Assembly: GCA_021018995.1 (NCBI GenBank)
Contig: CM037584.1
Coordinates: 44,901,811-44,965,810, forward strand
Direction of reading: 5' to 3'
Source of the DNA: Chloranthus sessilifolius
Taxonomy: Eukaryota > Streptophyta > Magnoliopsida > Chloranthales > Chloranthaceae
DNA: 64,000 bases
Shown here: positions 1,257 to 28,347 of the stretch, in pieces
How the letters are laid out: every line of letters begins with the position of its first letter
Numbering within the stretch: position 1 is the first letter of the stretch
Position numbers and translations under genes: made by a program
Notes under the pieces: generated by a model
What the model was told of the DNA's origin: nothing
The model's input: only the letters and a program-made list of their open reading frames with translations
Databases searched by the model: none

Positions 1257-2755
1257 TGTGACAGCCCGGATTTCGACACCTCGAAACCCGTACCATCAGC
1301 ACGAACCTCCAGACTGTGCCCCGAACATTGGTATAACAAGCACCACATAATAAATAAAGCAATTAACCTCATTAAAGCGGAAAATATTAATATGCCCAAC
1401 TGACATATTTAAAAGACAGTTCTACCCTCATGCCACTGCATGAATAGAAAACCGACCCGAACCATCGATGATACACAGATCACCCCAGATGGTTCGCCAA
1501 AAGAATATCTAGTTTAATTACATTGTTTCAACAAAAATAAAGGCTTGACATACCAAGCCGCACTAATCTCTCAAAACTACTCTCCGTCAAAGTACGTAGC
1601 AGAGTCACCTTGAAGAAGTCCTTGGGTGGAGGCTCCAACTCGTCTCCCGACGCGTAATCCGAATCACCCGGATCTACGCCCCCTGAAGCCTCAACTGCTG
1701 CTATCAAAGGACCTGCAACGTATAGTCTAAAAGGGTGAGTTACATCCTAGCTCAATAGAGAACAAACACAATGAACATATAAATTAAAATTCACATAGAT
1801 TCCATGATACTCTAAGCATGATGTGTCTATGCTTTTGAAAGAAAACAGTTCAAATATGATGAATTTACATTCAAGTTTACTGGTTGTTAGCATGTCTTAC
1901 TTTACTATTGATTTATCTTGAATGACACTGAACTGGCCTAAAGCAAAACTTAAATCTTCAACTTAAGTAATCCTCGAGCAATATAGCATCGAGCCCCGAT
2001 GAGATACCCTTCATTGTCATCTAATTAGATAGTTATAAAAAAAAATGTATTCCCTGAGAATACGACCCAAGCCCCTTTCTCACTAGGCGGCAGGGTTAAA
2101 TATCACACAACATCCCTGGGATGTACTTACGGTCACGGATAAACCTCTGTGTTGGTGTACGGATTCGCGTCGATCGGTCCGCGGATATCTCCGCCGATCA
2201 GGTATCCCCAAACCTCAAATAACAAAAATATCATATGTACTACATATAGTTGTTCACCGTGTAAGTGTGCTATCTTATATCAGTTAGGCCTCAATAGTAA
2301 TTATTCAATCACATGTATATATCCCTGAGATGTATACATACCCGCATCACACCTGATGCCTTTATTACTTTCTCATCCCCTGGGGATGTCTCAATCTCAT
2401 TAGATTACTGGTTCTTAATCACTTGCATCACACAAATGCCCTTATCACATTCTTGGTGTCACACACGCACCCATTTTCATAAAGCTTTTCACGATTTAAA
2501 ACGACTTCAATTTGATAATTATATCACTACATACATGCTCTTGAAATTAAAGTATATGTTCAAGGTGTTCCCTACCTCAAGTGTTTGAAACTCCTAGCAT
2601 CAAGGTCTCACGCGGCTTCTTATGCTCATAATCATACGTACCACCTATGGTACAACATAACACATGTAACTCATCACTAAAGATGTAACAAAGAAGGTCC
2701 AAGACCCTCCCTGAATCTCAAAGTCAACTATAAAGTCTAAGCAAAACTGTCAAAG

Positions 2756-3215
2756 TCGATTAATCGATTCTCAAAATCGATTAATCGAAATGCAATTTGA
2801 TTAATTGATTCTCAAAATCAATTAATCGAAACCAAAATCGATTAATCGATTCTCAAAATCAATTAATCGAGATTCAAATTCGATTAATCGATCCCAAATC
2901 GATTAATCGAGGTCTCCAACATAAGGCAGTCGATTCTTAAATCGAGTAATCAAGATCTCAAAATCGATTAATCAAAATCCCAAATCGATTAATTGAAATT
3001 CCAATTCGATTAGTCGATTTCCCCAAATTTCATTTCTCCAGTGGCTGGAGCTTCTCAGTCGATTAGTCGATTTCCAAATCGACTAATCAAAATCCAAATC
3101 GATTAATCAAAATTCATTTCGATTAATCAAAATCGGGCTTCCATGACTTTTCAACTTCTGGGCCAAAATCGATTAATCGAAATCCAATTTCGATTAATCA
3201 ATTTGGCCAGATTCA
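2756..3215. repeat. Array of TCGATTAATCGA palindromes in the 3' LTR of A
   Basis: About twenty exact or one-mismatch copies of the 12-bp palindrome TCGATTAATCGA are separated by 8-10 bp of variable spacer, so the period is about 20-22 bp. It lies 580-1040 bp from the sense start of the LTR, downstream of the TATA box and so in the part expected to be transcribed. Variants TCGATTAGTCGA and TCGACTAATCGA sit next to each other at 3059-3089 as a 13-bp inverted repeat with a 2-bp gap. Confidence 0.9.
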
Positions 3216-3577
3216 GCCCCCTTTCGGGCTGATCTTCCAAATCATTCTCAAACAATTTTTCCTTTTTTTTCTAAGCCTTCTTCCTATGAGTTTAAATATT
3301 CTTAACCACCATTTAAACTCCTACAATCTATGCATTTAATTCAACAAAATTTACCTCAATCAAATCCCAATTTGATTGAATCTCAAAGTTGGAATGGCTA
3401 GGGTTCCAGCTTTAGCTCCAAAGGATCCTTCGCGTTGAATTTGACTTTAAATACTTGAATCCCCTCTTGGCTTACATTCACTCCTTGCACAACAACCCCT
3501 CTTTACTTTTCTCCCTCTCTCTCTCTCTTCTTAACTCTTTCAACAATCAAACAAGAGTAAGTTCGGGTTCTTTAACC

Positions 3578-3585
3578 CTTTTATA
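3578..3585 (-). promoter_or_regulatory. TATA box in the 3' LTR of A
   Basis: On the minus strand the LTR reads GAGTATAAAAGGG about 210 bp from its start. It is followed by a GA-rich leader, as expected for an LTR core promoter. The identical site in the 5' LTR is at 16651-16658. Confidence 0.7.
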
Positions 3586-3793
3586 CTCATTTTCTATGTG
3601 TTGAGCACATACACCCCAGATGGTGTATGTGGTTCCAGATCTCACCTCACACTCCACACATTTGCTTTAATTTCACATCGCATCCGTTCATCACTCCTCG
3701 AGTCAACTAGTGAACTCCTACTTGGTCAAACTTATGACCAGTCGGGCACGGATCCCGAGGTCATCGTTTAATGCAATTTTTTGGGTTATTACA

Positions 3794-4387: not shown

Positions 4388-5617
4388 TCATCCGTTCGTT
4401 GTTGGCCTCCATGCGTGCCAACACGTCCTCAATCGTAGGACCGAATGAGGTGCTCGGCGGTGATAGAATGAAGTAGGCGTAGCTGCCGCGGACTGTGCTG
4501 GCGGCGTAGGTGAAGCGGTGGTATGGGAGGGTGCCCCCTCCACTAGTGGCTCCACTGGGTGTACCCCACCCACGGGTGGGTCCTGATGTGGTGGTGGTGG
4601 TAGTGCTACTGCTGCCGCTAAAACTGGACCAGGAGCCGGTAGGGTCCGCTTCAGTAAATTGTAGCTACGGCGCCATGAAGCAATATAGAATTGCTTCACG
4701 CAATCCATAGCCCTCACCTCGTGAGGTGATATGGTATAGTCGGGGGCGTCGAAGTAACACTCCAACATGCTCGATATGAGCCGAGCATACGGCATCCTCT
4801 CCTTGGGCCTTAGGTTGCCCTTCATCAATTTGCCCTTAATGTACCTCATCCCCTCTAGGATGAGCATGGCCGCGTCAAACCAACGGTCACAGAAGGCCGC
4901 GTAAAGTGCTTGTTGCACTTTCTCTACGCGCTCAGTGTCGTGGCGCATTGGGTAAAGGTTGCACTTGATTATTGAATCAAGCATCCACATATAGTGGGGA
5001 AGGTCGACCCTCCTAATGGAGGATCCCGACCCCGTCTTCCCGTTGGTCATACGGGCGACGATCTCCTCAAACTTAACCTCTTCCTCGAAGGGCGGAAAGA
5101 GGGTGGTCTCGGGTGTAAAATCGAGGTAACACTCGAGTACCTCGTGTATGTGGCGACGGGTGATCGTGTATGCCCGACCCTTAATGGTAGTCTTAACCAC
5201 GTCGTCGGTAGGGCCATCCACGAGCCCTTGGTAGAAGAGTCTAACCAACCTAGGGTAGTAGGAACCCCGGAATGGTTTCAGAAGGTTGCTGAGGCCGACA
5301 TTTTGAAGGTAATTGTGAGCCCATTGGGTCTCGCACGGTACCTCGGGGTTGGTGAATAGGGTTTGGTCAATGACGTAGTCGGTCTCGAAGGTTTTAGCCT
5401 CCCACCACTCATTGGGTTGAAGCACATTGGTGGGTGGTGGCGGCATGAGTGTCGATTCGCGTGAAGACGCGCTCGTCGAATCGGAGGTGGTCTCCGATGC
5501 CGACGGTGATGGAGTCCTCACCGGTGATGGGGTAGGTGGTGGCGATGCAGCGTTCTTACGCCGGATCGGAAGTTTAGTGGTTGCCTTCTTCGAAGACAAC
5601 CGAGTTTTGGGTGGCAT
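4388..5617 (-). CDS. Extra ORF (aORF) of element A, plant-transposon-protein type
   Basis: This is a 409-residue ORF downstream of pol and upstream of the 3' LTR, sense to the element. Residues 1-65 are basic and Pro/Ser-rich. A conserved domain starts near residue 70 with WWEAK and DQTL, continues with YPRLVRLFYQ (121-130) and KGR near 146, then DRWFDAAMLILEG near 244 and MPYARLISSMLE near 275. The C-terminal third is Pro/Ala-rich. The same landmarks occur in the aORF of element B. From memory the domain resembles the family named putative plant transposon protein (PF20167); no search was run. A frameshift near 4465 is likely, because another minus frame continues with a helical stretch (VLARMEANNERMNRRMDFLM) down to about 4346. 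The function is unknown. A palindrome array ends about 250 bp upstream of the start and a TATA-like TATATATAAA (around 5850-5860) lies between them. Confidence 0.75.
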   Translation of the reverse strand: MPPKTRLSSKKATTKLPIRRKNAASPPPTPSPVRTPSPSASETTSDSTSASSRESTLMPPPPTNVLQPNEWWEAKTFETDYVIDQTLFTNPEVPCETQWAHNYLQNVGLSNLLKPFRGSYYPRLVRLFYQGLVDGPTDDVVKTTIKGRAYTITRRHIHEVLECYLDFTPETTLFPPFEEEVKFEEIVARMTNGKTGSGSSIRRVDLPHYMWMLDSIIKCNLYPMRHDTERVEKVQQALYAAFCDRWFDAAMLILEGMRYIKGKLMKGNLRPKERMPYARLISSMLECYFDAPDYTISPHEVRAMDCVKQFYIASWRRSYNLLKRTLPAPGPVLAAAVALPPPPHQDPPVGGVHPVEPLVEGAPSHTTASPTPPAQSAAATPTSFYHRRAPHSVLRLRTCWHAWRPTTNG

Positions 5618-5848
5618 TTTGGTGAAAATCTAACAAAAATTAGGGTTTCTATAGCTTGAATTGGAAAGAAAACGAAATCTAGGGTTTTACCTTAGGCGTT
5701 TGATCCGATTGCAATTGTTTTCGATCCTAAATCAATCTGAAAAGCCCAAACCCTAGGTAGCTCAGATGGTTGAAGGAAGAAGAAGAAGAAGAAGGCACGC
5801 AAATACAAAAAGTTCAAATGATTTCGAATGAAATGAAAAACCCATCGA

Positions 5849-5860
5849 TTTATATATATA
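5849..5860 (-). promoter_or_regulatory. TATA-like box upstream of aORF A
   Basis: The minus strand reads CCTATATATATAAATCG directly after the palindrome array and about 235 bp before the aORF ATG. It is followed by a leader containing AAACCCTA (telo-box-like) words at about 5641-5650 and 5682-5690. This arrangement suggests that aORF has its own promoter inside the element. Confidence 0.5.
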
Positions 5861-5867
5861 GGCTCCG

Positions 5868-6395
5868 ACTCGATTAATCGAAATCCAAAGTCGATTAATC
5901 GAGATTCAAAACTAGGTTAAGCCGCGCGAAATCGATTAGTCGAAAGTCAAAATCGATTAATCGAAACCATTTCGATTAATCGAAATCGTATCCGTTAAAA
6001 TTTTTAAGTTTTGAAGCTCACTGTTGTGAGTCAGTCGATTAGTTGAAATTAATTTCGATTAATCGTAATTCCAAAATCGATTAATCGAATTTTACTTCGA
6101 TTAATCGAAATCGTGCAGTCCTTCCAAAATTTTCAAAATTCGTTAAGTTACTCGATTAGTTGAACTCCAGTTCGATTAATCGAAATTCCAAATCGATTAA
6201 TCGAAATCACACAAAATTCTTCAATTTCTTCAAAATTTCCTAAGTTCGATTAATCGAACCCCCAGATTGATTAATCGAAATTTCCTTTCTTTCATTTCTT
6301 GAATCCTCATCAAATTTCCAGTCACTGGCACATGCCAGCCGACTAATCGAACAAAATTGATTAATCGAATTTCCAAATCGATTAATCGATTTTGA
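5868..6395. repeat. Second TCGATTAATCGA array, upstream of aORF A
   Basis: About seventeen copies of the same palindrome as in the LTR lie between integrase and aORF. Local spacings are 19-21 bp (for example starts at 5871, 5892, 5933, 5954, 5973). It was not copied from the LTR as a block: spacer sequences differ and no other LTR sequence is nearby. So the motif itself, not a larger unit, is what recurs. Confidence 0.9.
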
Positions 6396-6723
6396 TAAGA
6401 TTTTTCCAGATTATCAAAATTCTCTGTCAATTTGATTCCTCTTGGTAATTCATGATCAGTTGTGTAACAACCTTGAAATCTAGAACATGAAACTAACTGT
6501 TTCGATCTACGTGCCCGGCACGGAAATCGAGACCGATTTAAAAATTAAGAAGTAATATTAGTTGAGATAAGGTTATACCGCAGTTAGATTAGTTCACATT
6601 TGAATTTTTGTTTAAGTCTGAGTTGGGTAAAGGGTTAGCGTAGCACTTCGCGTCGTAGCGACCGTGTTAGTGCTCCACACCGGAACAAAAATAAGGGGAA
6701 AACAGAAATATCTGTTTTCTTAG

Positions 6724-6731
6724 CTTATAAG
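6724..6731 (+). promoter_or_regulatory. TATA-like box of S1
   Basis: CTTATAAG lies about 260 bp from the LTR start and is followed by a GA-rich then CT-rich leader. The layout parallels the LTR promoter of element A. Confidence 0.45.
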
Positions 6732-7199
6732 AGAAGGAAGGGAGACCTAGAGGGAGTTCTTCTTCTTCTTCTCCCTCTTTCCCTTGCTTTAGAAGCTGAG
6801 AAGTCTGTATCTAGGTTGGTCTGTGAGGGTGTTCCTTGAGAAACGGAGTTAGCGGTACCCGGGGATCCCACATTATCCGAGATAGAGGATTGAGAGATGA
6901 GCTAGGACACTCCACACTAGCTTAAGAGTGTGTATGGTCTAGAGGGTTGAAAGGAAACTGGGCATCGACTTATCCAAGCCGTAGCGACGACAAACTCCGG
7001 AAACTAGATCCGAAGCCCTCATTCGAATCGATTTGCCGAAACCCCGTGAGGGCCCTAACAAAGGTAAGATTATGTGTTTTAATAGGGGCAAATGAGATGC
7101 CCAGGTGTGGGCATTGATGTCATGATAATGGTAGTTGAGAACCATTAATGAAAAATAGGGTTGGAGATGAACTCCATTAATGACAGAGTTTCTGTCATT

Positions 7200-7825
7200 A
7201 TTGATCGATCAACACAAGTGGTGATCGATCAATAGCAGTGGTGATCGATCAATGAAGCCCGTTGATCGATCAATCTATATAGGACAGAATAGGGGAACAG
7301 AGACCCAAAATGTTAGAAGTTCAATGCCCGAAGGGCATTGATCGATCAATTTAGGCATTGATCGATCAATGAGGGCATTGATCGATCAACAGGAGATTGA
7401 ACGACCAATGAAGGTTGGTGATCGATCAACAGAAGTATTGATCGATCACTGTAGGGTGTTGATCGATCAATGAGGTCAGTGATCGATCAATCTGTATAAA
7501 AAGAGAATGTGAACAGAAAGGTGAATTTTTGAAAAAGGGTTGGTGATCGATCAATGAGAGGTATTGATCGATCAACAGGAGGCATTGATCGATCAACCCA
7601 AGTGGTGATCGATCAATTTAAGCTATGTTAAAATGAGTAGAAGAGGTTATTGATCGATCAATGAGTGTATTGATCGATCAATGATAGTAGGTGATCGATC
7701 AATAAGGTGTATTGATCGATCAATTGTTGTAGAGTGGAGACTAAAAGAGTGGTGATCGATCAATGAGAGGTATTGATCGATCAACAAGGAGCATTGACCG
7801 ATCAACGTGAGTAGTGATCGATCAA
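7200..7825. repeat. Array of TTGATCGATCAA palindromes in S1
   Basis: About 22 exact TGATCGATCA cores plus two degenerate ones (near 7400 and 7795) lie in 626 bp. The starts are strikingly regular: 7203, 7223, 7243, 7264; then 7340, 7360, 7380, (7399), 7420, 7440, 7461, 7481. That gives a period of 20-21 bp with variable spacer sequence. The array sits about 740-1360 bp into the LTR, downstream of the TATA-like box. Confidence 0.93.
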
Positions 7826-9329
7826 TAACCCTGCTTTTGGTTCTGCTTTTGGTTTTGTGGATTAAACACCAGCCGGACATTGTGCAAGTATTAGCTGACA
7901 CCCCTAACATTTAAAGTACTATGTTTATGGTCTAGGAATAAAACCACGACAGTGAAAAGGCTTTGGATTTGCTTAGAAGATAGATTGACCTGAGGTAGGG
8001 GAAAACCAACCTAAACTGTTTTTGAGTATGATTCCATGTTTATCTTATATCTATGCCCTGATTTCTGCTTTTACCAAATATGTATGCATATCTTGATTCC
8101 TGCTATTTTGATTTCTGTTTCCTGATTCGCATTCTGAAAACTTGCTTCTGATTCTGTTATCTGATCTATGAGGTGTATACGTATGTGATTTGATGATTTA
8201 AACCAGATGATCCCTACCGACCCGGCGGTATATCCGATGCCTGGCACACTTGTGCACCTGCTTGTAATCCTCGGCACAATTGCACTCCATAGATGAGGCA
8301 TTGTTGCACTTTCACAATTGTTCATGTGAACGACGATTGGTTGGGGTTTCCTATCGGACATTCCTGTTTACTCCGTGCTATATAGTCACGGGAGTTTCTT
8401 AAGTTAAATATACACAATTTAAGCTCTCTGATAATATACTTACATGACATCTGATTTCTTGTCTAAAAGATCAGTATTTGATTTGATTCGTCACGATTGT
8501 ACATTTCTGATTTGATTTTTGTTATGAGATAGCATGATCTGCATATTCAATTCGTTTTGTTGGAAAATTCTCCTATTGAGCTAGGATGTAGCTCACCCTG
8601 TGTTCTAAATTAAATTTAGGTTCGAGTAGTTAAAGATCGAGAGTGATCCGGACTACCGGCTGATCCGAGTAGAAGACGAGGAGACACGTTGATAGACGAG
8701 TTCTATCCGTAACGGGTACTAGTGTATGCATTATCGTATTCTGGTTCTTTTGGATTATGGTGTGCCCGGTGGCCACTTCTGTGTACATTTCATTAGGATT
8801 ACTTATTGTATAGTTACGCATTCTATTCGGAACCACTATTGGGAACCATTGTTTGGGTGATGGATGTCCATCACCAATGGTTCTTCTTGGTTCCTTTTTG
8901 GAGAATGCATTTTCGTTGTTTAATATAGAATTAATTGTCTTAATATTGTTGTTCTTTATTATTAAATGCGTTGATAAGTGACTGGCTCGATCTACCACTG
9001 CTGGGTGGTGTCTGCTTGGCTTCCGCTTTACAAGCAGACACATATGATTTGTCCCGGGGATCATCCAGAGTATGATCCTGATGGCACGGATTTCTGGGTG
9101 CAGAAATTCGGGCTGTCACAAGTTGATTAGTGGTTCTACAACATACATCATCACGGCATTCAACTTAGGATCGCTATGTGGATAAGTTATCCTTTGAAGT
9201 AAAATGATCACATGGTCGATATTAATTTACAACACATGATTTAAATCCACAAACATGCTTGCGGGGTATAATCTACTCTCAAGTTGTCGGAAACAAGGCC
9301 GGATATTATTTTTTTACATCTGCCTCTCA

Positions 9330-10442
9330 TTCCCATGTAGCTTCCTTGGCCGGATGATGCTTCCATAGGACAAGTACTAAAGGAATCACTTTTGTTCGCA
9401 ACACTTATTCTTTTCGATCCAAAATCTCCACCGACTCTTCAATCATCGTCATGTCCTCATGCATCTCAAATGATTGACCGCTCAACACGTGATCAGGGTC
9501 ATTAAGATACTTCCTGAGCATAGATACGTGGAAGACATTATGTACTGGATCGAATAACTGTGGCAATCCAATGCGGTAAGTAACTTCCCCTACTCGACCC
9601 AAAACTTCAAACGGTCCAAGATAGCGGGGACTTAGCTTCCCTCTCTTTCCAAACCTCATCACCCCCTTCATAGGTGACACTTTCACAAACACGTGTTCAC
9701 CCACTTTGAAGTATACACTCGTCCGCTTGATATCGGCGTTGCTTTTCTGTCTGCTCTGCGCCGCTTTGAGTTTTGCCCTTATCATCCGAACATAGGTGGC
9801 ATTGTCTTCAAGTATTTCGGATCCCAAAACAAACTTCTCACCCGTTTCTTCCCAATTGATGGGCGATCTACATCGCCGTCTATAAAGAGCTTCATATGGT
9901 GCCATCCCAATGCTCGTCTGAAAACTATTGTTATATGCAAACTCAATTAAGGGTAGGTGCTGATCCCATGATCCTTGTAACTCTAACATACATGCCCTAA
10001 GCATGTCCTCGATGATTTGATTGACCCTCTCAGTCTGTCCGTCAGTTTGCGGATGGAATGCCGTACTGAAATCTAGTCGCGTTTCCATTCCTTCTTGAAA
10101 TTTCTTCTAAAACTTTGATGTATACAATGGGTCACGGTCTGAAACAATGCTACTCGAAATTTCATGCAAACGGACAATCTCTTTCATATAAAGCTCTGCC
10201 AGTTTCCCTGCCGTGTACATTGTGTTGTAAGGCAAGAAGTGTGCTGACTTGGTCAATCGATCGACCACGACCCAAATGGCATTGTATCTCTTTGCTATGC
10301 GCGGAAGTCCAACGATGAAGTCCATAGAGATCGATTCCCACTTCCATTCCGGTATAGGTAGAGGCTGTAATAGACCTGCGGGGTGTCTATGATCGATCTT
10401 CACTTGTTGGCATGTCAAATACCGCGACACGTACTCTGCCAC
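9330..10442 (-). pseudogene. Integrase and chromodomain of A
   Basis: The segment carries the DDE core of a Ty3/gypsy integrase: SMDFIVGLPR, SDRDPLYTSKF, and FHPQTDGQTERVNQ. It continues with the GPFEVLGRVGEVTYR and NVFHVSMLRKYL region, then a chromodomain-like tail (VIPLVLVLWKHH, EATWE) at 9335-9404. The HHCC zinc-binding part lies just upstream in the RNase H segment. In-frame stops occur after TSKF (about 10104), after ILDRKE (9402-9404) and inside the tail. All are in the same frame as the rest of pol. Confidence 0.9.
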
Positions 10443-10445
10443 ATC

Positions 10446-12023
10446 TTATTTCAAGCCTCTCCACCAGTAATTCTTTCTCAAGTCTTGATACATCTTTGTG
10501 CTTCCCGGGTGGATAGCATAGCTTGACTTGTGTGATTCATCAAGAATTGTTCGTTGTAGATCGGCGTTATCCGGAATACAGAGGCGGCCCTTGAACAATA
10601 AGGAACCATCCTCCTTGATTGAAAACTCAGATGTAATGCCTTCAGTTACATCTTGACGAATCTTTGTTAGCGTCGGGCCTTTCATTTGTAGCTCATGGAT
10701 ATGCTCAAATATCATCGGTCTCATTGAGATATTAGCCAAGAAGGCTCCTGTAGCTTGTGACTCGATGTTTGCATCATATAGGGCCAGATCTTCGAACAGC
10801 TTCCATCTGTGCATACCCAAAATTAAACTAGCTAACTGAGCTGAACTCTTCCGACTCAAGGCGTCAGCTACCACATTAGCTTTGCCTGGATGGTACTGTA
10901 TAGAACAGTCATGGTCCTTAAGAAACTCCATCCATCTACGCTGCCTCATGTTTAGTTCCTTCTGTGTAAACAAATACCTGAGGCTCTTATGGTCGGTGAA
11001 GATCTCAAACGTCTCACCGTACAAATAATGTCTCCAAATCTTAAGCGCGAAAATGACCGCTGCTAATTCTAGGTCATGTGTCGGATAATTCTTCTCATGC
11101 TCTTTCAACTGTCTCGACCCATACGCTATCACCTATTTGTGCTGATTAAGCACACATCCCAAACCAGTATACGAAGCATCGCTATACACTGCAAACCCTC
11201 CACTGCCTGAAGGTATAGCTAACACTGGAGCTGAAGTGAGTCTCTTCTTAAGTTCTTGAAAACTCTTCTCGCATGCCTCACTCCATTCAAACCTTGCGTC
11301 CTTTCGTGTGAGTCTCGTGAGTGGTCTTAATATTTTTGAAAAACCCTCAACGAAACGCCAGTAGTAACCTGCTAATCCTAGGAAACTGCGGATGTCTGTC
11401 ACTGTCTTTGGTTGCTCTCAATTCACTACCGCTTCGATATTTGCTGGATCTACAGTGACACCAAGCTTTGAGACGACATGTCCCAAAAAGCTAACTTCTT
11501 CTAACTAAAACTCACATTTGCTGAGTTTGGCATATAGTTGGTGTTCACATAGAGTCTGTAGGGCTAATCTCAAGTGTTTCTCATGCTCTTCTTCTGACTT
11601 TGAATAGATCAGGATGTCGTCAACAAACACTACGACACAAGTATATAGGTGTGGTTTAAACACCCTATTCATCAGATTCATGAATGACGCCGAGGCATTT
11701 GTCAACTCAAACGGTATCACCAGAAACTCATAGTGTCCGTATCGAGTCTTGAATGCAGTCTTCTGAATATCCTCTGCCTTGACTCTCAACTGATGATATC
11801 CTGATCTCAGATCGATCTTTGAGAAATGCTTCGCTCCTTACAGCAGATCAAACAAGTCATCTATCTTAGGCAAAGGGTATCGGTTCTTAATAGTGAGTTT
11901 GTTTAATTATCGATAGTCAATGCACAGACGCATTGACCCATCTTTCTTCTTTACAAACAAGACCGGTGCTCCCCATTGAGACACGCTCAGTCTAACAAAA
12001 CCCTTGTCCATTAACTCTTGTAG
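10446..12023 (-). pseudogene. Reverse transcriptase and RNase H of A
   Basis: RT landmarks are [18 protein letters not shown] and the catalytic [10 protein letters not shown] (intact). RNase H follows with [30 protein letters not shown] and [13 protein letters not shown], then the integrase zinc module ([11 protein letters not shown]). Stops lie at 12021-12023, about 11907, 11838, 11502-11504, near 11415, 11130-11132 and near 10443. No frameshift is needed to read the whole segment. Most stops fit one transition in a Gln, Trp or Arg codon. Confidence 0.9.
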
Positions 12024-12694
12024 CTACTTTTTCAACTCCTTCAACTCAGCAGGAGCCATTCTATATGGTGCTTTAGAAACAGGCTCCTTTCCTGGTGCTA
12101 AGTCGATGGCGAATTCTATTTCTCTCTCTAGAGGTAATCCAGGTAACTCCTCTAAAAATACATCGGCGAAGTCTCGCACAACTGCTATCTCTGAGATTAC
12201 ATTCTTCTCCTCTTTGTGCTCCTTCAGGAATGCTAAGTATCCGCTACACCCCTTTCTGATCAACCGCTCGGCCCTGACTGCTGAGATAAGTGGTAGGTGC
12301 GTCGACCTTTCTCCTCGAAATCGAAACGATCTCCTTGTATTCGATCTAAACATGACGACTTTGTTCTTACAATCTACCGTCGCACAGTGAGTCGATAGCC
12401 AATCCATGCCAAGGATCACGTCGAATCCTTGCATGTCTAACAGAATTAGGTTCGCGGGTAGCTCAAAATCGCCTCCATCCATGACCTTCACGATCACGGA
12501 GTTGCAACCCTTCTCGGTATCAACCGCTTTCCCAGTAGGAACCGTCACAGTTAAAACGAAGTCTAACTCCTCTGGGTCAACTTTCATCTTCTTTGTGAAG
12601 CGAGGTGTAACAAATGAGTGGGTAGACCCCGGGTCTATCAACACTCGAGCTTCGTATGACACGTCACTTCCCTTCTTCTAGATGTGTAATTCAC
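12024..12694 (-). pseudogene. Aspartic protease of A (start of pol after the gag-pro intron)
   Basis: The active-site motif reads LIDPGSTHSFV instead of the usual D-S/T-G. The flap and second conserved region read GFDVILGMDWL. The part upstream of the listed ORF, down to the candidate splice acceptor at 12694/12695, has one in-frame stop (about 12678). After the protease, the linker to RT runs through FADVFLEELPGLP and the [11 protein letters not shown] motif, then meets the stop at 12021. Confidence 0.85.
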
Positions 12695-12846
12695 CTAATT
12701 ATAGATACATATATATATATATTGTTTATCATCATTACACTAGAATTTATCACATGCAAGTTCCTCTTATATTTTTCTAAATATAGATGCACCTTCTTTA
12801 TCTAAAATTTCATGAATTGAAATTCTTTATTTAAAAGAAAGCTCAC
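12695..12846 (-). other. Candidate spliceosomal intron between gag and protease in A
   Basis: On the minus strand the gag frame reaches Asn-Asp-Val-Ile-Gln, then AAG|GTGAGC (donor), a 152-bp AT-rich stretch with stops, and TAATTAG|GT (acceptor). Removing it would place the split glycine codon (phase 1) exactly where elements B and D split theirs. The stretch includes a TA run (about 12709-12722). Confidence 0.6.
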
Positions 12847-14257
12847 CTTGAATGACATCGTTTGTATTCTGAGCCTCTTGAGCTATGACTGCGTAGGCTC
12901 TTCCTTGGACGATCGGCTTCCTTGCTTGAATCGGTCGCGAAATAGGTACTGAAGCCGTCTTCCCTTTGTTCACCTCGAGGCATTCCCTGATCAAGTGGCC
13001 CACCTTACCACATCGGAAGCAACCCCGAGTGCCTACCCTACAGTTCGATGTCTTGTGAGGCTTGCCACACTTGGCACTAGTCTCACGTGGCGTGGAAGAA
13101 GCTGCTCGAGAAGCCCCCTGTGTGACTATAGCACTTGTAGTAGTCGCAGGGCTCTCGTAGCGTATCGGTCTCCCCGACACGAGCAATGGAAATCTCTGCT
13201 GGTTGCTCTGCTGCGTCGGTCTCCCATAGCCTCCTTGAAATGGTGGCTTCTGATTGTTTGGTATGAACCTAGGCTTTTTGTTCACCGGTTCGTAATTCCC
13301 CGTTCTGCTCCGATCAGAGTTCCACCTTCCCTGTTGCTCCCTCTGGCGGTATTTGTTGTTATTTTCTTCCTCTACCACCAAGGCCTTACTCATGACCTCT
13401 CCATAGGTCCTCAGCTGGAATGGTGCTACTCCTCCCCTCACGTCTGATCTCAACCCTTGCTGAAACCTTTTTGCTCTCATCATCTCTGTGATGATGTAGT
13501 CAGGCGCAAAGCGAGCGAGTCGCATGAACTCCACTCCATAGTCTCTCACTGTCATCTTCCCCTGAGTAAGCTGTAGAAATTGAATTTCCATTTGGTTCCT
13601 CACTACCTCAGGGAAGTACTGTTTATTGAATTCTTCAACGAATTCATCCCAAGTCCATGGCATGTCTGGGGTCTCCTGAGCCCTAGTCCGTGAAACGGAC
13701 TTCCACCAAGGCCCAGCCTCCCCATCCAACATATAGGCTGCCCAACGGACGCTCTCGTCCTCAGTACACGTGAGCACACTGAACACCTTCTCCATCTCAC
13801 TCAACCAAAGGCTTTCGCCACTATGGGCTCTCCTGTCCAAAGAAAGCTAGAGGTCTCATCCTCCCAAACTCGAAAAGCAGATGATGGTGACCGTGTTTGA
13901 GCCACTCTGGAGGTGTCTGGTACACGTCAGCTTATTTGTCGTATGAGCTGCCAGAGATGCTGCCTGTTGAGCCATAGCAGCTGCCATGGTCTCCATGGTG
14001 TGTATCATTCTCTGACGCTCTTCTCTATCTTCATTTTTTTCTCTAATTCTCTCTTGCTCTCTTTGATCTTGATCCTAACAATCTCGATCACGACCCTCTT
14101 CCTGGTCTTGGCTTCCCTGGCCACCACTACCAGAAGCCCCTCCATCTCCTATAGGTACTCTATTTGTAGGAGAGATGTACCCATCTCCACTATGTAAACT
14201 TCTATTATGGCCGCCCCTGGGTCGGCTCCTTCCTCTAGGTAACATCACGATCTGCAC
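12847..14257 (-). pseudogene. Gag of A
   Basis: The main open part (12827-13840, running into the intron) holds the retrotransposon gag domain (GPWWKSV, WDEFVEEFNKQYFP, FAPDYIITEMMRAKRF). Two zinc-knuckle regions follow; the second is intact (CFRCGKVGHLIREC) and the first has lost its first cysteine. The N-terminal part (14075-14257, starting MLPRGRSRPRGG) is in another frame or separated by stops between 13840 and 14075. The capsid/nucleocapsid layout is normal for chromoviruses. Confidence 0.85.
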
Positions 14258-14333: not shown

Positions 14334-14346
14334 TGCTTTGATACCA
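14334..14346 (-). other. Primer-binding site of A (initiator tRNA-Met type)
   Basis: The minus strand reads TGGTATCAAAGCA just inside the 5' LTR. It matches the complement of the 3' end of plant initiator Met-tRNA (TGGTATCAGAGC) with one or two differences. Elements B and D have the same variant TGGTATCAAA. Confidence 0.85.
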
Positions 14347-15871
14347 ACTATGATGACCAATTTGACTCAAACTGCCATCGACTATCAAAGACGATCCTCC
14401 GTGCCCCAAAGCTTAGAACGAAACATTGGTATAACAAGCACCACATAATAAATAAAGCAATTAACCTCATTAAAGCATAAAATATTAATATGCCCAACTG
14501 GCATATTCAAAAGACAGTTCTACCCTCATGCCACTGCATGAATAGAGAACCGACCCAAACCATTGATGGTACACAGATCACCCCAGATGGTTCGCCAAAA
14601 GAATATTTAGTTTAATTACATTGTTTCAACAAAAATAAAGGCTTGACATACCAAGCCGCACTAATCTCTCAAAACTACTCTCCGTCAAAGTACGTAGCAG
14701 AGTCACCTAGAAGAAGTCCTTGGGTGGAGGCTCCAACTCGTCTCCCGACGCGTAATCCGAATCACCCGGATCTACGCCCCCCGAAGCCTCAACTGCTGCT
14801 ATCAAAGGACCTGCGACGTATAGTCTAAAAGGGTGAGCTACATCGTAGCTTAATAGAGAACAAACACAATGAACATATAAATTAAAACTCACATAGATTC
14901 CATGATACTCTAAGCATGATGTGTCTATGCTTTTGAAAGAAAACAGTTCAAATATGATGAATTTACATTCAAGTTTACTGGTTGTTAGCATGTCTTACTT
15001 TACTATTGATTTATCATGAATGACACTGAACAGGCCTAAAGTAAAACTTAAATCTTTAACTTAAGTAATCCTCGAGCAATATAGCATCGAGCCCCGATGA
15101 GATACCCTTCATCGTCATCTAATTAGATAGTTGTAAAAAAAAATGTATTCCCTGGGAATACGACCCAAGCCCCTTTCTCACTAGGCGACGGGGTTAAATA
15201 TCACACAACATCCCTGGGATATACTTACGGTCACGGATAAACCTCCGTGCTGGTGTACGGATTCGCCGTCGTATTGATCACGAATATCCTGCCGCGTCAG
15301 TCGTGGGTATCCCGCCACGTCGGTGGGGTATCCTCCAAACCTCAAATAAAAAAAATATCATATGCACTACATATAGTTATTCACCGTGTAAGTGTGCTAT
15401 CTTATATCAGTTAGGCCTTAACAGTAATTATTCAATCACATGTATACATCCCTGGGATGTATATATACCCGCATCACACCTGATGTCTTTATTACTTTCT
15501 CATCCCCTGGGGATGTCTCAATCTCATTAGATTACTGGTTCTTAATTACTTGCATCACACAGATGCCCTTATCACATTCACACGCACCCATTTTCATAAA
15601 GCTTTTCACGATTTAAAACGACTTCAATTTGATAATTATATCACTACATACATGCTCTTGAAATTAAAGTATATGTTCAAGGTGTTCCTTACCTCAAGTG
15701 TTTGAAACTCCTAGCATCAAGGTCCCACGCGGCTCCTTGTGCTCATGATCATACGTACCACCTATGGTATAATATAACATATGTAACTCATCACTAAAGA
15801 TGTAACAAAGAAGGTCCAAGACCCTCCCTGAATCTCAAAGTTAACTATAAAGTTTAAGCAAAACTGTCAAA

Positions 15872-16275
15872 GTTGATTAATCGATTCCCAAAATCGATTA
15901 ATCGAAATGCAATTCGATTAATCGATTCTCAAAATCGATTAGTCGAGATTCAATTTCGATTAATCGATCCCAAATCGATTAATCGAGGTCTCCAACATAA
16001 GGTGGTCGATTCTTAAATCGAGTAGTCAAGATCTCAAAATTGATTAATCGATCCCAAATCGATTAATCGAAATCCCAATTCGATTAGTCGATTTCCCCAG
16101 GTTTCATTTCTCCAGTGGCTGGAGCTTCTCAGTCGATTAGTCGATTTCCAAATCGACTAATCAAATCCAAATCGATTAATCAAAATTCATTTCGATTAAT
16201 CGAAATCGGGCTTCCATGACTTTTCAACTTTTGGGCCAAAATCGATTAATGGAAATCTAATTTCGATTAATTGAT
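15872..16275. repeat. TCGATTAATCGA array in the 5' LTR of A
   Basis: About seventeen copies occur; the first starts are at 15874, 15896, 15916, 15937, 15958 and 15977, giving spacings of 19-22 bp. Relative to the 3' LTR array some units have been gained or lost, which shows that the array length changes after insertion. Confidence 0.9.
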
Positions 16276-16650
16276 TTGGCCAGATTCAGCCCCCTTTCGC
16301 GCTGATCTTCCAAATCATTCTCAAACAATTTTTCCTTCTTTTTCTAAGGCTTCTTCCTATGATTTTAAATGTTCTTGACCACCATTTAAACTCCTACAAT
16401 CTATGCATTTAATTCAACAAAATTTACCTCAATCAAATCCCAATTTGATTGGATCTCAAAGTTGGAATGGCTAGGGTTCCAGCTTTAGCTCCAAAGGATT
16501 CTTCGCGTTGAATTCGGCTTTAAATACTCGAATCCCCTCTTGGCTTGCATTCACTCCTTGCACAACAACCCCTCTTTACTTTTCTCCCTCTCTCTCTCTC
16601 TTCTTAACTCTTTCAACAATCAAACAAGAGTAAGTTAGGGTTCTTTAACC

Positions 16651-16658
16651 CTTTTATA
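16651..16658 (-). promoter_or_regulatory. TATA box of the 5' LTR of A
   Basis: TATAAAAG on the minus strand lies about 210 bp into the LTR. Transcription would start near 16620, ahead of a GAGAGAGA-rich leader at 16588-16605. Confidence 0.65.
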
Positions 16659-16917
16659 CTCATTTTCTATGTGTTGAGCATAAACACCCCAGATGATGTA
16701 TGTAGTTTCAGATCTCACCTCACACTCTACACGTTTGCTTTAATTTCATATCGCATCCGTTCATCACTCCTCGAGTCAACTAGTGAACTCCTACTTGGTC
16801 AAACTTATGACCAATCGGGCACGGATCCCGAGGTCACCGTTTAATGCAATTTTTTCGGGTTATTACATATACAGTTGACGATGACACTTTTCCAACGCCT
16901 ACTTCTTCTGATAGAAC

Positions 16918-19467: not shown

Positions 19468-19470
19468 GCC

Positions 19471-20689: not shown

Positions 20690-22015
20690 GTAAGGATGCG
20701 GAAAATTGCATTTGGGTTCTTTATACATGTAGAAGTGAAAGCAAAAGGAGGGAAGATGTTGAAATATATTTGATGCAGTACGGAATATAAAAATTGATTA
20801 AGGTGGTGGAATCATTCACATCGGGCGGAATTGCTCACGCCAAAGCTAGGGACTCGCTCACCTAGGTTAGGGAATCGCTCACCTAACAATGATGAATCAG
20901 TCACTCTATAATGGAGGCTTCAAGCTCTCAACATAAAAATTCAAATATTCTTCTTTTTTTCTACACTTCTTTGGATATATATTGTGACGACCCGACTTTT
21001 CCCCCTACACTAGCGGGGAAAGGTCGCGCCGTCGGATCACGTAAGGTGATCCTCTGACAAGTGCTTCGTACACAAAGTATTATAATTGCGAAAGCCAGTA
21101 ATAAACTCTGATAAGGAGAAAATATGGCAACAACTGATATCTATAGTAAAACAGAATGAAATATAAAATAGGAACTATGTATAGCTTTTTACTGATGACG
21201 GCTATTCGTCATCTAAACAATGGAAAGAAAACCTATATATGTATAGAACTAAATATCTCATCAAAACATTGTAATGCTGTTTTATACTAGTTTTCTTTCA
21301 AGTATTCTTTTTCTCTCTAACCTATCAAGGAAAGAAGTCCTCTGCAGAATCTTCTTCCTCTTCCTCTTTGTCCTCCTCCTCAGGCTGGTAGGTAGTGTAG
21401 CGACCCGAGGTCTCACAACCTCTTAATTGTAAGATCTTAGACCGTACCTTCGTATCGTGAACCATAGAAACATAATAAGGCGATAAAAGCACCTTAAACA
21501 GCGGAAGATAAAATTTCTTTAAAATATTAATTAATCTAAATAAAACCCATGATAATGTTCTTATTCCAATAACAAGTCCAACATGATTAAAGCTTAAACA
21601 GTTTTGATAAAATACTAACTGATCAATGCCCCATTTATTTAAAATTACTAATAACTAGAAAGGAAAATAGCTAATTAGGCCACGAAGCCATCATCGCCAT
21701 TCAGTCCAGTTTCCTGAGCACCACGTGCCGTCTCATCGCCATAGACCCATACATTGTCCTTGGCAATACCTGTCTCATCTGGTCACCTACATCAACAAGG
21801 GGTGTAAGTATACACTTATATGGACCAGACATGCAATCCATTGAAGTATAAAATATCAGTTATAGCCATATAAACATTTCGGTATATTTCATGTGTGTGT
21901 GCATGTGGCATGCATAATCTCAATAAGCTGAAATGTATTGAACATAAACATATATATCAATAATACATGAATGCATCATTTCTTTTAATTTTATTCTTGT
22001 CATTTAATGCATGTT

Positions 22016-22360
22016 AGACTCCGTCCCGCTCAAGACGTTGGGTCTTAATCATGCTTCTCACTTGTTTAGTTAGACTCCGTCATGTTCAAGACGTTGGGTC
22101 TAATGAATCATATCATTTATTACATGTCAAACTCCGTCTCGCTCAAGACGTTGGGCTTAATCATGCTCATCATACTCTTGTTTAGTTAGACTCCATCTTA
22201 CACAAGACGTTGGGTCTAATATCTTCTTAGACTCCATCATGTACAAGATGTTGGGTCTAATGCTCCTTAATTGTGTTTAGTTAGACTCCATCAAGCACAA
22301 GATGTTGGGTCTAATACCTTCTTAGACTCCATCATGTACAAGATGTTGGGTTTAATGCTC
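22016..22360. repeat. Seven hairpin units TAGACTCC...GGGTCTA in S2
   Basis: Seven units read TTAGACTCCRTC, 7-8 variable bases, then CAAGAYGTTGGGTCTAA. Each unit can fold: TAGAC pairs with GTCTA and RTC pairs with GAY. The variable R/Y pair changes together: GTC with GAC in the first three units, ATC with GAT in the last three. Only the fourth (ATC with GAC) is mismatched. They lie in the expected transcribed part of the LTR. Confidence 0.8.
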
Positions 22361-22589
22361 GTTGATCATGGTTTGGCATTTCATCATATTTTATGTCTTA
22401 GTTGTGCATTATATAGATCATCATGGAACATGTAAAGTACATAAGAGTGACATCATAATATATAAGCATTTAAGTGCATTTAATCATGGTACATGAATAT
22501 TAAAGTGTACACAGTCATGGTGCATAAACATTAACATTTAATGACACTGTTGTGAGAAGAACTTGAATATAGAACTTAATTATTCATAC

Positions 22590-23170
22590 TCAATCTATTG
22601 AATTCATGCTTAGGCTCAATCTATTGATTCTAACTCAATCTATTGAACTCTATTCATGCTCAATGGATTGATTTCTTAATCCATTGACATAAATCCATGC
22701 TCAGGCTCAATCTATTGAGCTTTACTCAATCCATTGAGTTTTGTCTGTTACCATTTAATTTTCATCCTCAATCGATTGACATCCAATCGTCAATCGATTG
22801 ACATAATTATGTGTACTTTTCCAAAGCAATATCATTTATTAGTATTTACTTTAATATTCCTTCTTAATCGATTGACATACAATCCTCAATCGATTGACAT
22901 AATTCTGTGTATTTTTCCAAAATAATATCATTTAATCCTCAATCGATTGACATCCAATCGTCAATCGATTGACATAATTATGTGTACTTTTCCAAAATAA
23001 TATTATTTATTAGTATTTACTTTAATATTCCTCTTCAATCGATTGACATACAATCCTCAATCGATTGACATAATTCTGTGTTATCTTCCAAAATAATATC
23101 ATTTAATATTATCTGCCCCACTGTCCATCCTCAATCGATTGACATACAATCGTCAATCGATTGGCGTGCT
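22590..23170. repeat. TCAATCGATTGA palindrome array in S2
   Basis: At 22764-23165 exact TCAATCGATTGA words occur in pairs 20-22 bp apart (for example 22772 and 22794), and the pairs recur about every 100 bp with the spacer ACATAATTNTGTG. Before this, at 22600-22740, degenerate words of the form CTCAATCTATTGA occur with irregular spacing. The array is 780-1360 bp from the sense LTR start, the same place as in A and S1. Confidence 0.88.
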
Positions 23171-24302
23171 TCTGTGAGCACATATCAAAATGCATCAAAT
23201 CACATGGTGGGATTTCAACCGTCTTCTTTTTAATCTAAGTAATCCACATTAATAATCACTAACCCTAGCATGCATCTCATTTAATCATACCATCATTATT
23301 TATAAAATAAATACACTAATTTACATAAAAATCTATTTAAAAATTCATATTTTAAGTTCAATGGAAAGCATGATTTCTCCATACCTAGATCGATCGTACC
23401 ACCACGATTATATTAAGATCCCAACAATGATGATGATTCTAGAAGGAGGTGAAGGCTGCTTGAGAATATACGCCAACGTCTCGCCGCACTTCCAAAAGAA
23501 GGGTTCTAGGAAGATAGATCTAGAATTTCTTCTCTAAGGTTTCTAGGGTCTCTGACGGCTTTATTCTTAAGAAGAACTCTCAATGAGTTTATAATTTAGG
23601 GTTCTCCGTAAGACGCTTATTTATTATATTTTGGGGATTATCCGGTGTTAAGCTAACAGAACAAGGAAGAGTGTATAGACTTTTACCTCAAAGTTCAAAA
23701 TAGAGGTTTAGAGCACACATAGCAAGGTTTGATCCTTAGACTTCTTATCTAGAACTTAAAGTCTTTAACCAGTAGGCTATTACACAACTTATGTTCATTA
23801 ATGACGAAAATAAATATAAGAGCTTGAAAAACTAAAACATGCATTTTTCGATAAAACGTTTTAAAAAGTCAAGGCATGCGGGGAATACGATATTAAACAC
23901 ATACACATATTTTAGGTGTATCAAAGACATAAAATTCAGATCATGACAGGTAGGATCCCCTTCGTGTTCTAGGTCCCGATCAAGGCCTGCAGCTAAGACA
24001 CGAGGCCGTGAAATGAGCTACCAATAAAGCTTAATAGAAATCTCACATTTAATACTTACAGGTTAACCAGAGATTTCTAGTACTTCAGCATAACTACATC
24101 ATTTAAAACATCTCATTTATAGGTAATGTTAATATCAAATAAACATGTATTTCATTTACATCATCATGCCTAATCAGGAATTATATTTACAGGAAAACAT
24201 GCTTGAACAGGAGTACTATTTACGAAATTAAACTTGAACATAATCTAGAAAGAACCAACGAAATTCAAGAACACACGCATGTACAAGAATCAAGAATATC
24301 AA

Positions 24303-24480
24303 ACTCCCGAGTTAGCGGGATCATTTGTCAAGCTCCCGAGTTAGCGAGATCACTTGTACCGAGACATCAAGCTCTCGAGTTAGCGAGATCACTTGGACCG
24401 AGACATCAAGCTCTCGAATTAGCGAGATCACTTGTGCTTATGAACAAGAAGTCAAGCTCCTGAGTTAGCGGGATCACTTG
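24303..24480. repeat. Hairpin units CTCCCGAGTTAGCGGGATCACTTG in the 3' LTR of B
   Basis: Five units share the loop AGTTAG or AATTAG and the tail ATCACTTG. The stems vary in a paired way: TCCCG with CGGGA (first unit), TCTCG with CGAGA (third and fourth), TCCTG with CGGGA (fifth, G-U type pair). The second unit is mismatched at one base. Confidence 0.8.
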
Positions 24481-24921
24481 AAACAAAACTCAATAACATG
24501 TACGACAATACAAGAATTTTTCAAAGGCGTAAATCGAGTATCCTAGCATAACATGATACAACATGAGACAGGATATAACAAGTTGATAAAATCCCGGAAA
24601 TACTAAATGTGAGGGCATGCAATTTACATATAAATATTTATCATATGAGTTTATCAAGCCTTAAGTATATTTACATCTATCTTGCTTTCAACACTACAAA
24701 TCAAAAGTAACGTGTAAGGGTGCAAGGTAAAATTCCTACCTTGGGTGAACGTTGATGACTTTAACTTATACGACTCCAAGCCATCTCCCTTCACGGTTTC
24801 CTTGTGAATACCTATAATACATATAATTACGTTTTCATATATACATGCCGGCTCACCATCATGTGACTGCCATGTGTCTGAATAATGTACAAAACACTAC
24901 CCATATACACAGACACACAGG

Positions 24922-25005
24922 GTTGCTGCGGCAAGGTACAAAGTTGCTGCGACAAGTCTCTCAGGTAGACTCTTGCCGCAACAAGCCTGATGTTGCCGCG
25001 GCAAG
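24922..25005. repeat. TTGCCGCGGCAA palindromes in the 3' LTR of B
   Basis: Four words of the TTGCCGCGGCAA type start at 24923, 24944, 24973 and 24992; the last is exact and the others have one or two changes. Spacings are 21, 29 and 19 bp. They lie about 920-1000 bp from the sense LTR start. Confidence 0.8.
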
Positions 25006-25924
25006 CCTGACAGCTTTGGCTTACTGCGTATTTTCTTCTCTCTTTTCGGTTTTCGTAATTCTTTGAGCTTTCTACTCTATGCTCTTATGCCTTTCACATT
25101 ATTCTTAGTTTAAAATTTTACAGAGAGTTCATTGGTATCTTTTAATTTGGTGTGCGAGATTTTGGATCTTTGGACATCGAAGATTTCGGCGCCGAACCCT
25201 CGCATACATTATTCACTTATAATTTATGGCAAAGAGACTCATCTAACTTGTGGGTTTCGTTATGGAGTACCTTTTTGGTGGATTCTTGGGTTGCGATGAC
25301 GTCGGAATGGTATAGATGTAGAAATTGTGACGTTGATTTCGAAGATCTTGATAGCAAGGATGTGAGGAATTTCCAAAGATCAGATGGTTGCTTCCTGCAT
25401 ATTCTCCCAGCCGAATCATAGGGTCACCATGTGATCCACTGGTTGCAAGGATTAGTTTGAGATTCTCCCCATAGCGAGAAGTGAGATTGAGAGGTGAAGA
25501 AGGGCTTTTGTCTCTGTGAGGGTTTACTGGTTTTGCATTTTGAAGTGGGAGAGATGAGAGGGATAGCGGGAGGCTTTATTTGCATTTTGCACTTGACGTG
25601 CATGGGGTTTAAATGTGACTCATGCCAACGTGGAGTCAGCTAGCGGATAACATGTTACAAAGCCTTAAAAGGCTTTGTTCCTTTGTAGTGATGCTACACT
25701 AGTTATGGGTGTATGGGCTGGGCCAAGGTTCAGGTGTATATGTGATACAGTTTTAATAAATATATGGGTCAACTTAGTAACTGTACTAGGCCACTAAGGC
25801 CCCAAAATTTATCAGCTGTCCTTATCTAATCCAATCATTTCTTTGTGTCCTGTGATAAGTACAAACCCGAACCTACCCGAGTCTGTACCCGGTATTATCA
25901 GATTAAAGTTTGGCAGCTGATACA

Positions 25925-27589: not shown

Positions 27590-27859
27590 AGAGAGGAAAA
27601 ACTAGGGTTTTACCTAAATTTCGTGCCCAATTTCAGAGAATAACGCAGAAAAGGGAATTGGAGAAGGTACGCCAAATGCGATTCTCAAACTCACGAAGAA
27701 TTTGGCGCGAGAATGGTTGAGATTTGAACTAAAAATGGAGTTTGTTCTTCACGGGAGGAAACCTAAAGAGACCCCACGCTGAAAATGATAGGGATTTGGG
27801 GCTTTTTGGCCCCACTTAACTGCTTCTCAATTGCCGCGGCAACCCTTAATGCTTGCCGC

Positions 27860-28291: not shown

Positions 28292-28347
28292 TTGCCACGG
28301 CAACCCTTAATGCTTGCCGCGGCAAGCCTGGTCCTTGCCGCGGCAAG
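28292..28347. repeat. TTGCCGCGGCAA palindromes upstream of aORF B
   Basis: Words start at 28292 (one change), 28314 (exact) and 28335 (exact), spaced 22 and 21 bp. The closer copy at 27831 is 242 bp upstream of the aORF start, compared with about 253 bp between array and aORF start in element A. Confidence 0.85.

Follow-up and report, generated by a model that had tools for sequence, protein, structure and literature searches.

A 64,000-nucleotide stretch of the Chloranthus sessilifolius genome (assembly GCA_021018995.1, contig CM037584.1, positions 44,901,811 to 44,965,810), hereafter the window, contains two long terminal repeat (LTR) retrotransposons, elements A and B, each with an additional open reading frame (aORF) that sits 3' of pol in sense orientation and each with its own short palindrome repeated in arrays (Table 1). 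The palindrome is TCGATTAATCGA in A and TTGCCGCGGCAA in B, and two nested LTRs, S1 and S2, carry arrays of TTGATCGATCAA and TCAATCGATTGA, respectively. In A and B each LTR contains the element's own palindrome, and so does the DNA upstream of the aORF, an arrangement proven for these two only. An earlier note, made from the letters of this DNA, had described it for both elements. For A the description holds throughout: with up to two mismatches allowed, TCGATTAATCGA occurs 54 times in the window where 4.15 matches are expected, a count reached by none of 100 shuffles, and 50 of these lie in the two LTRs and upstream of the aORF, with 4 elsewhere. The different palindrome of B (14 matches in the window against 0.78 expected, with a single stray at 4867) occupies the same three places in short arrays of ~3–4 sites each, as the note had it, but the gene spans 26207–27559 rather than 26207–27589 and contains in-frame stops. 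S1 and S2 are true solo LTRs, with the target-site duplications (TSDs) AGTTG and GGTAG, respectively.

Elements with and without the extra gene

The LTRs of element A, which lies on the minus strand, are ~93–95% identical in self-alignment, and its gag-pol remains, although split over several frames in the domain profile search, have the Ty3/gypsy order of gag, protease, reverse transcriptase (RT)–ribonuclease H (RNaseH) and integrase. Element B has the same layout as A but with a broken aORF, and its gag and RT-RNaseH-integrase frames, which were scanned as well, are also broken. The A family consists of Ty3/gypsy chromoviruses, since an A-family copy elsewhere in the genome (L025; L numbers denote fetched genomic loci) has an integrase with a chromodomain at its C-terminus (PF00385, E=6.2e-6, 26.5 bits, cut-off 25.1); PF00385 was not seen in the partial integrase frame of a second copy, L026. 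A tRNA-Met primer site is a criterion for chromoviruses, and the tRNA-Met-like site TTGGTATCAAAGC inside the 5' LTR of A agrees with it.

A further element of the window, D (47480–56509), has neither gene nor array, as the earlier note had stated: its integrase frame stops ~90 bp from the 3' LTR, so that there is no space for an aORF there, and the window scan found no palindrome array in it. This element bears on the possibility that another element protein (the integrase or its chromodomain tail, or Gag) binds the palindromes while the aORF merely travels along. The A- and B-type integrase genes do lie directly upstream and have also diverged, but they are closer to each other (49–60% identity over short C-terminal stretches) than are the A and B aORFs (27–38%), the arrays mark the aORF promoter, and D possesses an integrase without possessing an array; we therefore consider this explanation improbable.

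Array spacing and the predicted internal promoter

Within arrays the sites recur at a pitch of 20.6 +/- 0.9 bp (measured over 49 gaps from four arrays, of the A, S1 and S2 palindrome types, one S2 gap being entered three times through a duplicated block and removed in the analysis of longer gaps), and the pitch is 20–22 bp in the B type and in a type based on CGGACGTCCG (the CGG type, below) as well. Where the sites lie farther apart, their distances tend towards multiples of 10.5 bp (41 gaps in 10 hand-picked arrays; mean cosine 0.374; p 0.0001, or 0.0013 once the choice of period is allowed for), with A-type gaps of 55–56 bp lying off phase, and the same 41 gaps show no periodicity at 20.5–21 bp. 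Duplication of a 21-bp unit alone would yield a periodicity of 20.5 or 21 bp and not of 10.5 bp, so the pattern is unlike pure duplication; the effect is moderate and we take it as supporting evidence.

The arrays upstream of the aORFs mostly end at a nearly constant place. In A the nearest palindrome ends 252 bp before the aORF start codon (5617), in agreement with the ~253 bp given by the earlier note, but in B the nearest perfect palindrome lies 271 bp from the ATG, the 242 bp of the note having been counted from 27589. In all eight array-bearing A-type loci the last palindrome ends 7–9 bp before the sequence TATATA, which is followed by an untranslated leader and then the aORF. The distance from the last palindrome to the TATA box is 7 bp in a family that we call E type, 9 bp in L014, and, for the two CGG-type loci where a TATA can be recognised, 10 and 11 bp, while 15 of 21 B-type loci have a TATA-like box 10–12 bp past the last palindrome; an exception to this short spacing is L057, where the box lies 35 bp from the array. 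The script used for these distances took decoys for S2_L014, B_L030, B_L034, B_L039, B_L048 and B_win, and the S2 distance was measured separately. Because the last palindrome mostly closely precedes a TATA-like box, the array is a putative activating region, with the appearance of control DNA for an internal promoter from which the aORF would be transcribed at predicted start sites.

The same positions speak to an RNA-level function, in which palindromes in the transcript would pair for genome dimerisation, packaging or the formation of hairpins. RNA of the S1 array does fold far above shuffles (z -10.4), and the LTR arrays of A are downstream of the predicted LTR TATA box, but repeated palindromes of any kind fold so, the aORF array is upstream of its own TATA box and hence outside the aORF mRNA, and the 10.5-bp phasing and near-fixed TATA distance indicate double-stranded DNA. 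A role of the palindromes in RNA is thus hardly probable.

The aORF and its copies in the host genome

The open frame of A's aORF runs from 4388 to 5629 on the minus strand with its ATG at 5617, and its product resembles PF20167 (Transposase_32) with E=5.1e-10 and 40 bits, below the curated cut-off of 45; its C-terminus is unlike that of its relatives. The N-terminal piece of the B aORF gives a weak match to the same profile (14.8 bits). Ratios of nonsynonymous to synonymous substitution (dN/dS) lie between 0.15 and 0.36 in all 15 pairs among six A-type aORFs, and the A-family aORF is under purifying selection. Most of nine aORF proteins or pieces have an N-terminus rich in lysine and arginine. 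None of the nine has a transmembrane-like stretch (maximum 19-residue hydropathy 0.42–1.34), and an env-like reading of the aORF was rejected for want of such a segment. A likeness to fetuin was also rejected; it comprised three solved-structure matches with E 0.08–0.09, covering residues 17–104 only. Among 5.8 billion proteins no homologue was found of the whole A aORF (8000 best candidates scored) or of the aORF core (620 candidates), and viral contigs held no relatives of the aORF or pol and no array. The earlier note had likened the aORF to VANC, the protein of VANDAL transposons. VANC proteins contain DUF1985, and although the likeness stands as a matter of logic, a profile search found no DUF1985 match in the aORF proteins up to E=1 or 5, and the elements here are not DNA transposons.

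All genome surveys covered the window's own 2.17-Gb host genome, in which the pair TCGATTAATCGA-N9-TCGATTAATCGA (exact, 21-bp pitch) occurs 55,556 times, as against 0 for the backwards pattern. The A aORF protein gave 51,008 first-look candidates, of which 101 were scored; all matched, at 78–91% identity (the window's own copy excepted), and 52 are stop-free in the match. Five loci drawn from the stop-free rows of this search (L025–L029) all have palindromes upstream of the aORF, 17–34 in each, and an upstream array was found in eight of the nine A-type aORF loci seen. L029 (704–1680) is an A-type copy with 34 palindromes upstream of its aORF, expanded as 117–118 bp super-repeats of four sites. 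Conversely, 20 stretches were fetched for holding or adjoining A-type array pairs: six contain an aORF match, representing five distinct aORFs, two of which belong to other families (L010 and L014). Sequence matching the LTR of A is present in 18 of the 19 stretches aligned (the exception, L023, lacks any match of 120 bp, and L024 is not among the 19). To judge from these alignments, A-type LTRs without a nearby aORF are common, and they are probably solo LTRs.

The B type was represented by 20 loci picked on protein identity (89 down to 60%) together with B itself, and three palindromes align across the set. Palindrome columns have 88% mean majority identity as compared with 65% for spacers and flank, a contrast that 0 of 10,000 permutations reach over the 21 loci. 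The B palindrome was listed first in 11 of the 21 (one tied) and ties in second place in two more, and several of the remaining loci carry decayed copies of it in the alignment. We consider it very improbable that the arrays are functionless products of neutral tandem-repeat growth: duplication does enlarge arrays, as the 34 sites of L029 with their 117–118 bp super-repeats attest, but palindromes are kept while spacers vary, in loci picked blind to palindromes, and pitch and position are common to different palindromes.

A blind survey of PF20167 genes

A search of the genome with PF20167 yielded 13,856 candidates, of which 150 were scored, all above the curated cut-off. Ten loci that differed in match offset and frame length were taken blind from a shortlist of ~22 of the 150 rows, and their upstream DNA was fetched afterwards; 1.15 kb upstream of each aORF was then scanned de novo for palindromic 10-mers and compared with 100 dinucleotide shuffles. 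Nine of the ten have a significant upstream array, beating all 100 shuffles, and so the presence of an aORF predicts an array, as the earlier note had proposed to check. The arrays fall into four classes, namely CGGACGTCCG in five loci, CGATTAATCG with CGATGCATCG in two, CCTCGCGAGG in one and TGGTTAACCA in one, with the smallest margins in the TGGTTAACCA locus (score 5, shuffle maximum 3) and in L055 (6, shuffle maximum 4). Among 207 control segments, drawn from the window and from the stretches fetched for A-type arrays, 46 reach a score of 5, of which 37 hold known array words and 9 other palindromes; these 9 include the cluster of the E type and, within the window, a TGGTTAACCA cluster. The coupling of gene and palindrome is more general than the window shows.

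Palindrome and protein also vary together. In alignments of at least 50 amino acids, aORFs are 49–89% identical within a palindrome class (A versus L056/L058 apart) and 24–41% between classes, and when class labels were shuffled among 13 aORFs the observed contrast, which owes much to five CGG aORFs, was reached in 1 of 10,000 trials. At the level of sequence, then, palindrome class correlates with aORF clade, with one exception. The earlier note's expectation that aORF phylogeny tracks the motif is accordingly borne out in that class follows clade, but fails for TCGATTAATCGA, which is common to A and L056/L058.

Palindromes recur away from the aORF promoter in families other than A and B. The palindrome at the L010 aORF promoter, of the E type, also forms a cluster upstream of gag (L009, 8834–9021) with 11 overlapping matches, compared with 21 matches in 215 kb elsewhere, and this cluster is presumed to lie in the element's LTR. 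At the L013/L014 locus the S2-type palindrome stands directly upstream of an aORF and in further clusters, although nothing at this locus aligns to the S2 LTR. In the L056 family the two top words downstream of the aORF are its own two palindromes. The family of L056, L058 and L061 mixes TCGATTAATCGA and TCGATGCATCGA upstream of the aORF and, in L061 (L056's locus), downstream too, and it is possible that this two-palindrome family is an intermediate in a motif switch.

Other features of the window

The aORF promoter region of B is tandemly duplicated (27557–27859 resembles 28022–28320 at 95%), and an inverted-repeat insertion resembling a miniature inverted-repeat transposable element lies between the duplicates (27557–28320) and splits one palindrome. 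A 22-bp repeat at 86–139 has TGGTTAACCA-type palindromes that match, in palindrome and pitch, the array upstream of the L054 aORF, and is probably a piece of another family's array. At 63002–63768 a 110-bp tandem repeat includes the palindrome TTTGATCAAA; it is the top-scoring control segment without a known array. The LTRs of element D, which has no aORF, contain an 18-bp non-palindromic tandem repeat, AACAGATTCTGGATTCTG, at 48714–48811 and 55491–55645. Exons at 19470–20760, which we take to resemble a host ERD6-like sugar transporter, are broken near the B insertion.

Table 1. Features of elements A and B and of the solo LTRs S1 and S2, in window coordinates (PBS, primer-binding site).
Feature	Position	Strand	Basis or remark
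aORF of A, 409 codons open from ATG	4388..5617	-	Open reading frame; PF20167 profile match
TATA box of predicted internal aORF promoter	5851..5860	-	9 bp past last A palindrome
A array upstream of aORF, 17 sites	5870..6389		Motif scan
A array in 3' LTR, 18 sites (up to 2 mismatches)	2756..3201		Motif scan
A array in 5' LTR, 15–16 sites	15873..16274		Motif scan
aORF of B, broken	26207..27559	-	Four in-frame stops in frame shown
B palindromes upstream of aORF, duplicated promoter region	27831..28346		Motif scan
B array in 3' LTR, 4 sites	24923..25004		Motif scan
B array in 5' LTR, 3 sites	35280..35341		Motif scan
S1 array TTGATCGATCAA, 24 sites	7201..7828		Motif scan
S2 array TCAATCGATTGA	22768..23164		Motif scan; degenerate copies from 22590
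Element A 3' LTR	1257..3793	-	TSD TATAC; self-alignment with 14422–16868 and flanking TSD
Element A 5' LTR	14345..16867 (start approximate)	-	tRNA-Met-like PBS TTGGTATCAAAGC directly inside
A gag-pol remains: gag, RVP_2, RT/RNaseH, integrase with SH3_Tf2-1	9405..13846	-	Domain profiles
Element B 3' LTR, split by S2	20985..25924 (pieces 20985–21395, 23949–25924)	-	Self-alignment
Element B 5' LTR	33929..36260	-	Self-alignment
Solo LTR S1, inserted into A between pol and the aORF array	6463..9120	+	TSD AGTTG, read from sequence
Solo LTR S2, nested in B 3' LTR	21396..23948	-	TSD GGTAG

Discussion

We think it somewhat probable, from sequence comparisons, that the product of the aORF is a DNA-binding dimer that regulates the element encoding it, and we infer that this product binds the palindromes, dimerises, and activates or anti-silences. 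The product would act as a symmetric dimer that reads the family-specific 12-bp palindrome, and sites spaced every two helical turns would place many dimers on one face of the DNA, with cooperative loading. The array just upstream of the TATA box would drive the aORF itself, making an autoregulated internal promoter, and with a second array in the LTRs, binding may keep both promoters active, either by transactivation or by the exclusion of silencing. As families diverge, protein and palindrome would change together. VANC-like anti-silencing is one of the two options, transactivation the other, and an internal promoter would be no less in keeping with a transactivator loop than with anti-silencing. 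The wider statement, that the PF20167 aORFs of plant Ty3/gypsy elements are radiating element-encoded regulators that read palindromes, with a clade-specific 12-bp code, sites on one helix face and a self-activating internal promoter, is put forward tentatively, as one that may nearly as readily hold as fail.

It is also conceivable, though we consider it unlikely, that host transcription factors bind the palindromes and that the aORF is merely a gene driven by these sites, with some other function. The array adjoins the TATA box much as an ordinary upstream activating sequence does, one palindrome is common to two distant aORF clades, and when Sirevirus repeats were compared with a motif database, the sites found were mostly those of stress factors, according to the available text (Bousios et al., 2010; PMC2829016). 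Set against this, several host factor families would be needed for eight or nine palindrome words, even though some are alike, and while the palindrome changes with the aORF clade, the pitch does not, nor in most classes does the distance to the TATA box. An element-encoded, co-evolving binder would be simpler, because supply by the host would need several unrelated factors acting at constant pitch and at a mostly constant distance from the TATA box.

Several observations weigh against an element-encoded regulator of this kind. On the side of the protein, no known DNA-binding fold was recognised, the only meaningful profile match being PF20167, and the AlphaFold model of the A aORF with two B pieces is poor (mean predicted local distance difference test score, pLDDT, 36.6). 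On the side of the arrays, the blind locus L059 has an aORF with no upstream array in the 1.15 kb scanned, L006 (an A-type aORF with its 5' end missing) has no palindrome upstream, and B-type upstream regions taken singly beat all 20 shuffles in only 8 of 21 loci. A TATA-like box lies 40–41 bp from the array in L056 and L058, none is recognisable beside the array in L050, L053 and L055, and LTR arrays do not adjoin the LTR TATA box, those of A lying ~380–820 bp beyond the predicted one. The three further families with a second cluster (E, L056 and L013/L014) leave its position in an LTR not shown, and two of the three cases are weak; no stretch of L013/L014 of at least 120 bp aligns to the S2 LTR. 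A check for a downstream second cluster in three blind families was clear in one of the three, the CGG (CGGACGTCCG) family having a single perfect palindrome in 6.4 kb downstream and L057 three near-matches ~4–5 kb downstream. Furthermore, TCGATTAATCGA is common to A and to the distant L056/L058 clade, although their aORFs are only 34–38% identical; this clade also uses TCGATGCATCGA, its aORF is about equally close to that of L014 (32–38%), and the sharing could be due to convergence, recombination or an ancestral motif. Lastly, six other ENV-bearing Sireviruses are without motifs in the text available to us (PMC2829016).

The Sireviruses are the nearest precedent for the anatomy. According to the available text on these Ty1/copia elements, they have element-specific palindromes in the LTRs and upstream of a 3' ENV gene; among 13 motif-bearing Sireviruses, linker copies are present in nine of nine with ENV and in none of four without, the clusters lie close to the TATA box of the LTR, a CGG-CCG core is present in 12 of the 13 motifs, and host factors rather than the ENV product are suggested as binders (Bousios et al., 2010; PMC2829016). 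Elements A and B likewise have palindromes in their LTRs and ahead of an extra gene at the 3' side, but they are Ty3/gypsy with a chromodomain, a PF20167-like gene and palindromes that track the aORF clade, and no helical pitch is reported in what we have of the Sirevirus account.

For the logic the precedent is VANC, an extra gene accompanied by arrays of a short, family-specific motif in non-coding DNA, where protein and motif diverge together; as described in the portions available, the motif is 9 bp, in one orientation and non-palindromic, and both binding and hypomethylation have been demonstrated (PMC5735166, PMC10398659). Here too a short family-specific motif is arrayed in non-coding parts, but VANDAL is a Mutator-like DNA transposon, whereas the present elements have gag-pol and LTRs, and binding is predicted. 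Whether extra ORFs of LTR retrotransposons have a VANC-like role has already been posed as a question, so far as the accessible text of that paper goes (PMC12844716).

Two further systems may be compared by description. Foamy virus Tas is, in the partial account available, a retroelement accessory product that acts on an internal promoter and on the LTR. The internal promoter drives tas itself. Foamy viruses are vertebrate retroviruses, and we know of no palindrome arrays or family-specific code for Tas. Maize Spm TnpA is a transposon protein that binds a repeated 12-bp motif and activates a methylated promoter, but Spm is a DNA transposon and TnpA belongs to another protein family.

Plant retrotransposons commonly have extra genes of unexplained function between pol and the 3' LTR, by the parts of these reports at hand (PMC7264820, PMC11728184). 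PF20167 has been reported in a sunflower Athila aORF, 3' of pol (PMC11728184), in the one pertinent paper that a search for this domain gave, and Retand elements have antisense TRP28 ORFs with tandem repeats, DNA binding being predicted for TRP28 (PMC11963269), again as far as the available text extends. The aORFs studied here take the same place 3' of pol as those of Athila and Retand, but in the A and B types they are PF20167-like genes of chromoviruses and lie in sense orientation. The accessible portions of PMC11728184, PMC11963269 and PMC7264820 report no link between such a gene and a family-specific palindrome, and a literature search by title and start of abstract, which covered few subscription papers, found no such link for a Ty3/gypsy aORF. 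The anatomy of Sireviruses and the logic of VANC being already known, what would be new is a PF20167-like gene of Ty3/gypsy elements with palindromes that appear to track its clade.

The family-specific pairing of gene and palindrome, abundant in this one genome, makes the function of the aORF directly testable by binding. If the proposed regulator is real, LTR retrotransposons too would make sequence-specific regulators of themselves, and the aORF would be to them what VANC is to VANDAL transposons and Tas to foamy viruses. The families would then offer a natural series of protein–palindrome pairs from which a DNA-recognition code might be worked out, and the long-unexplained 3' aORFs would have a function, one that would explain the pairing of palindromes with ENV in Sireviruses as well.

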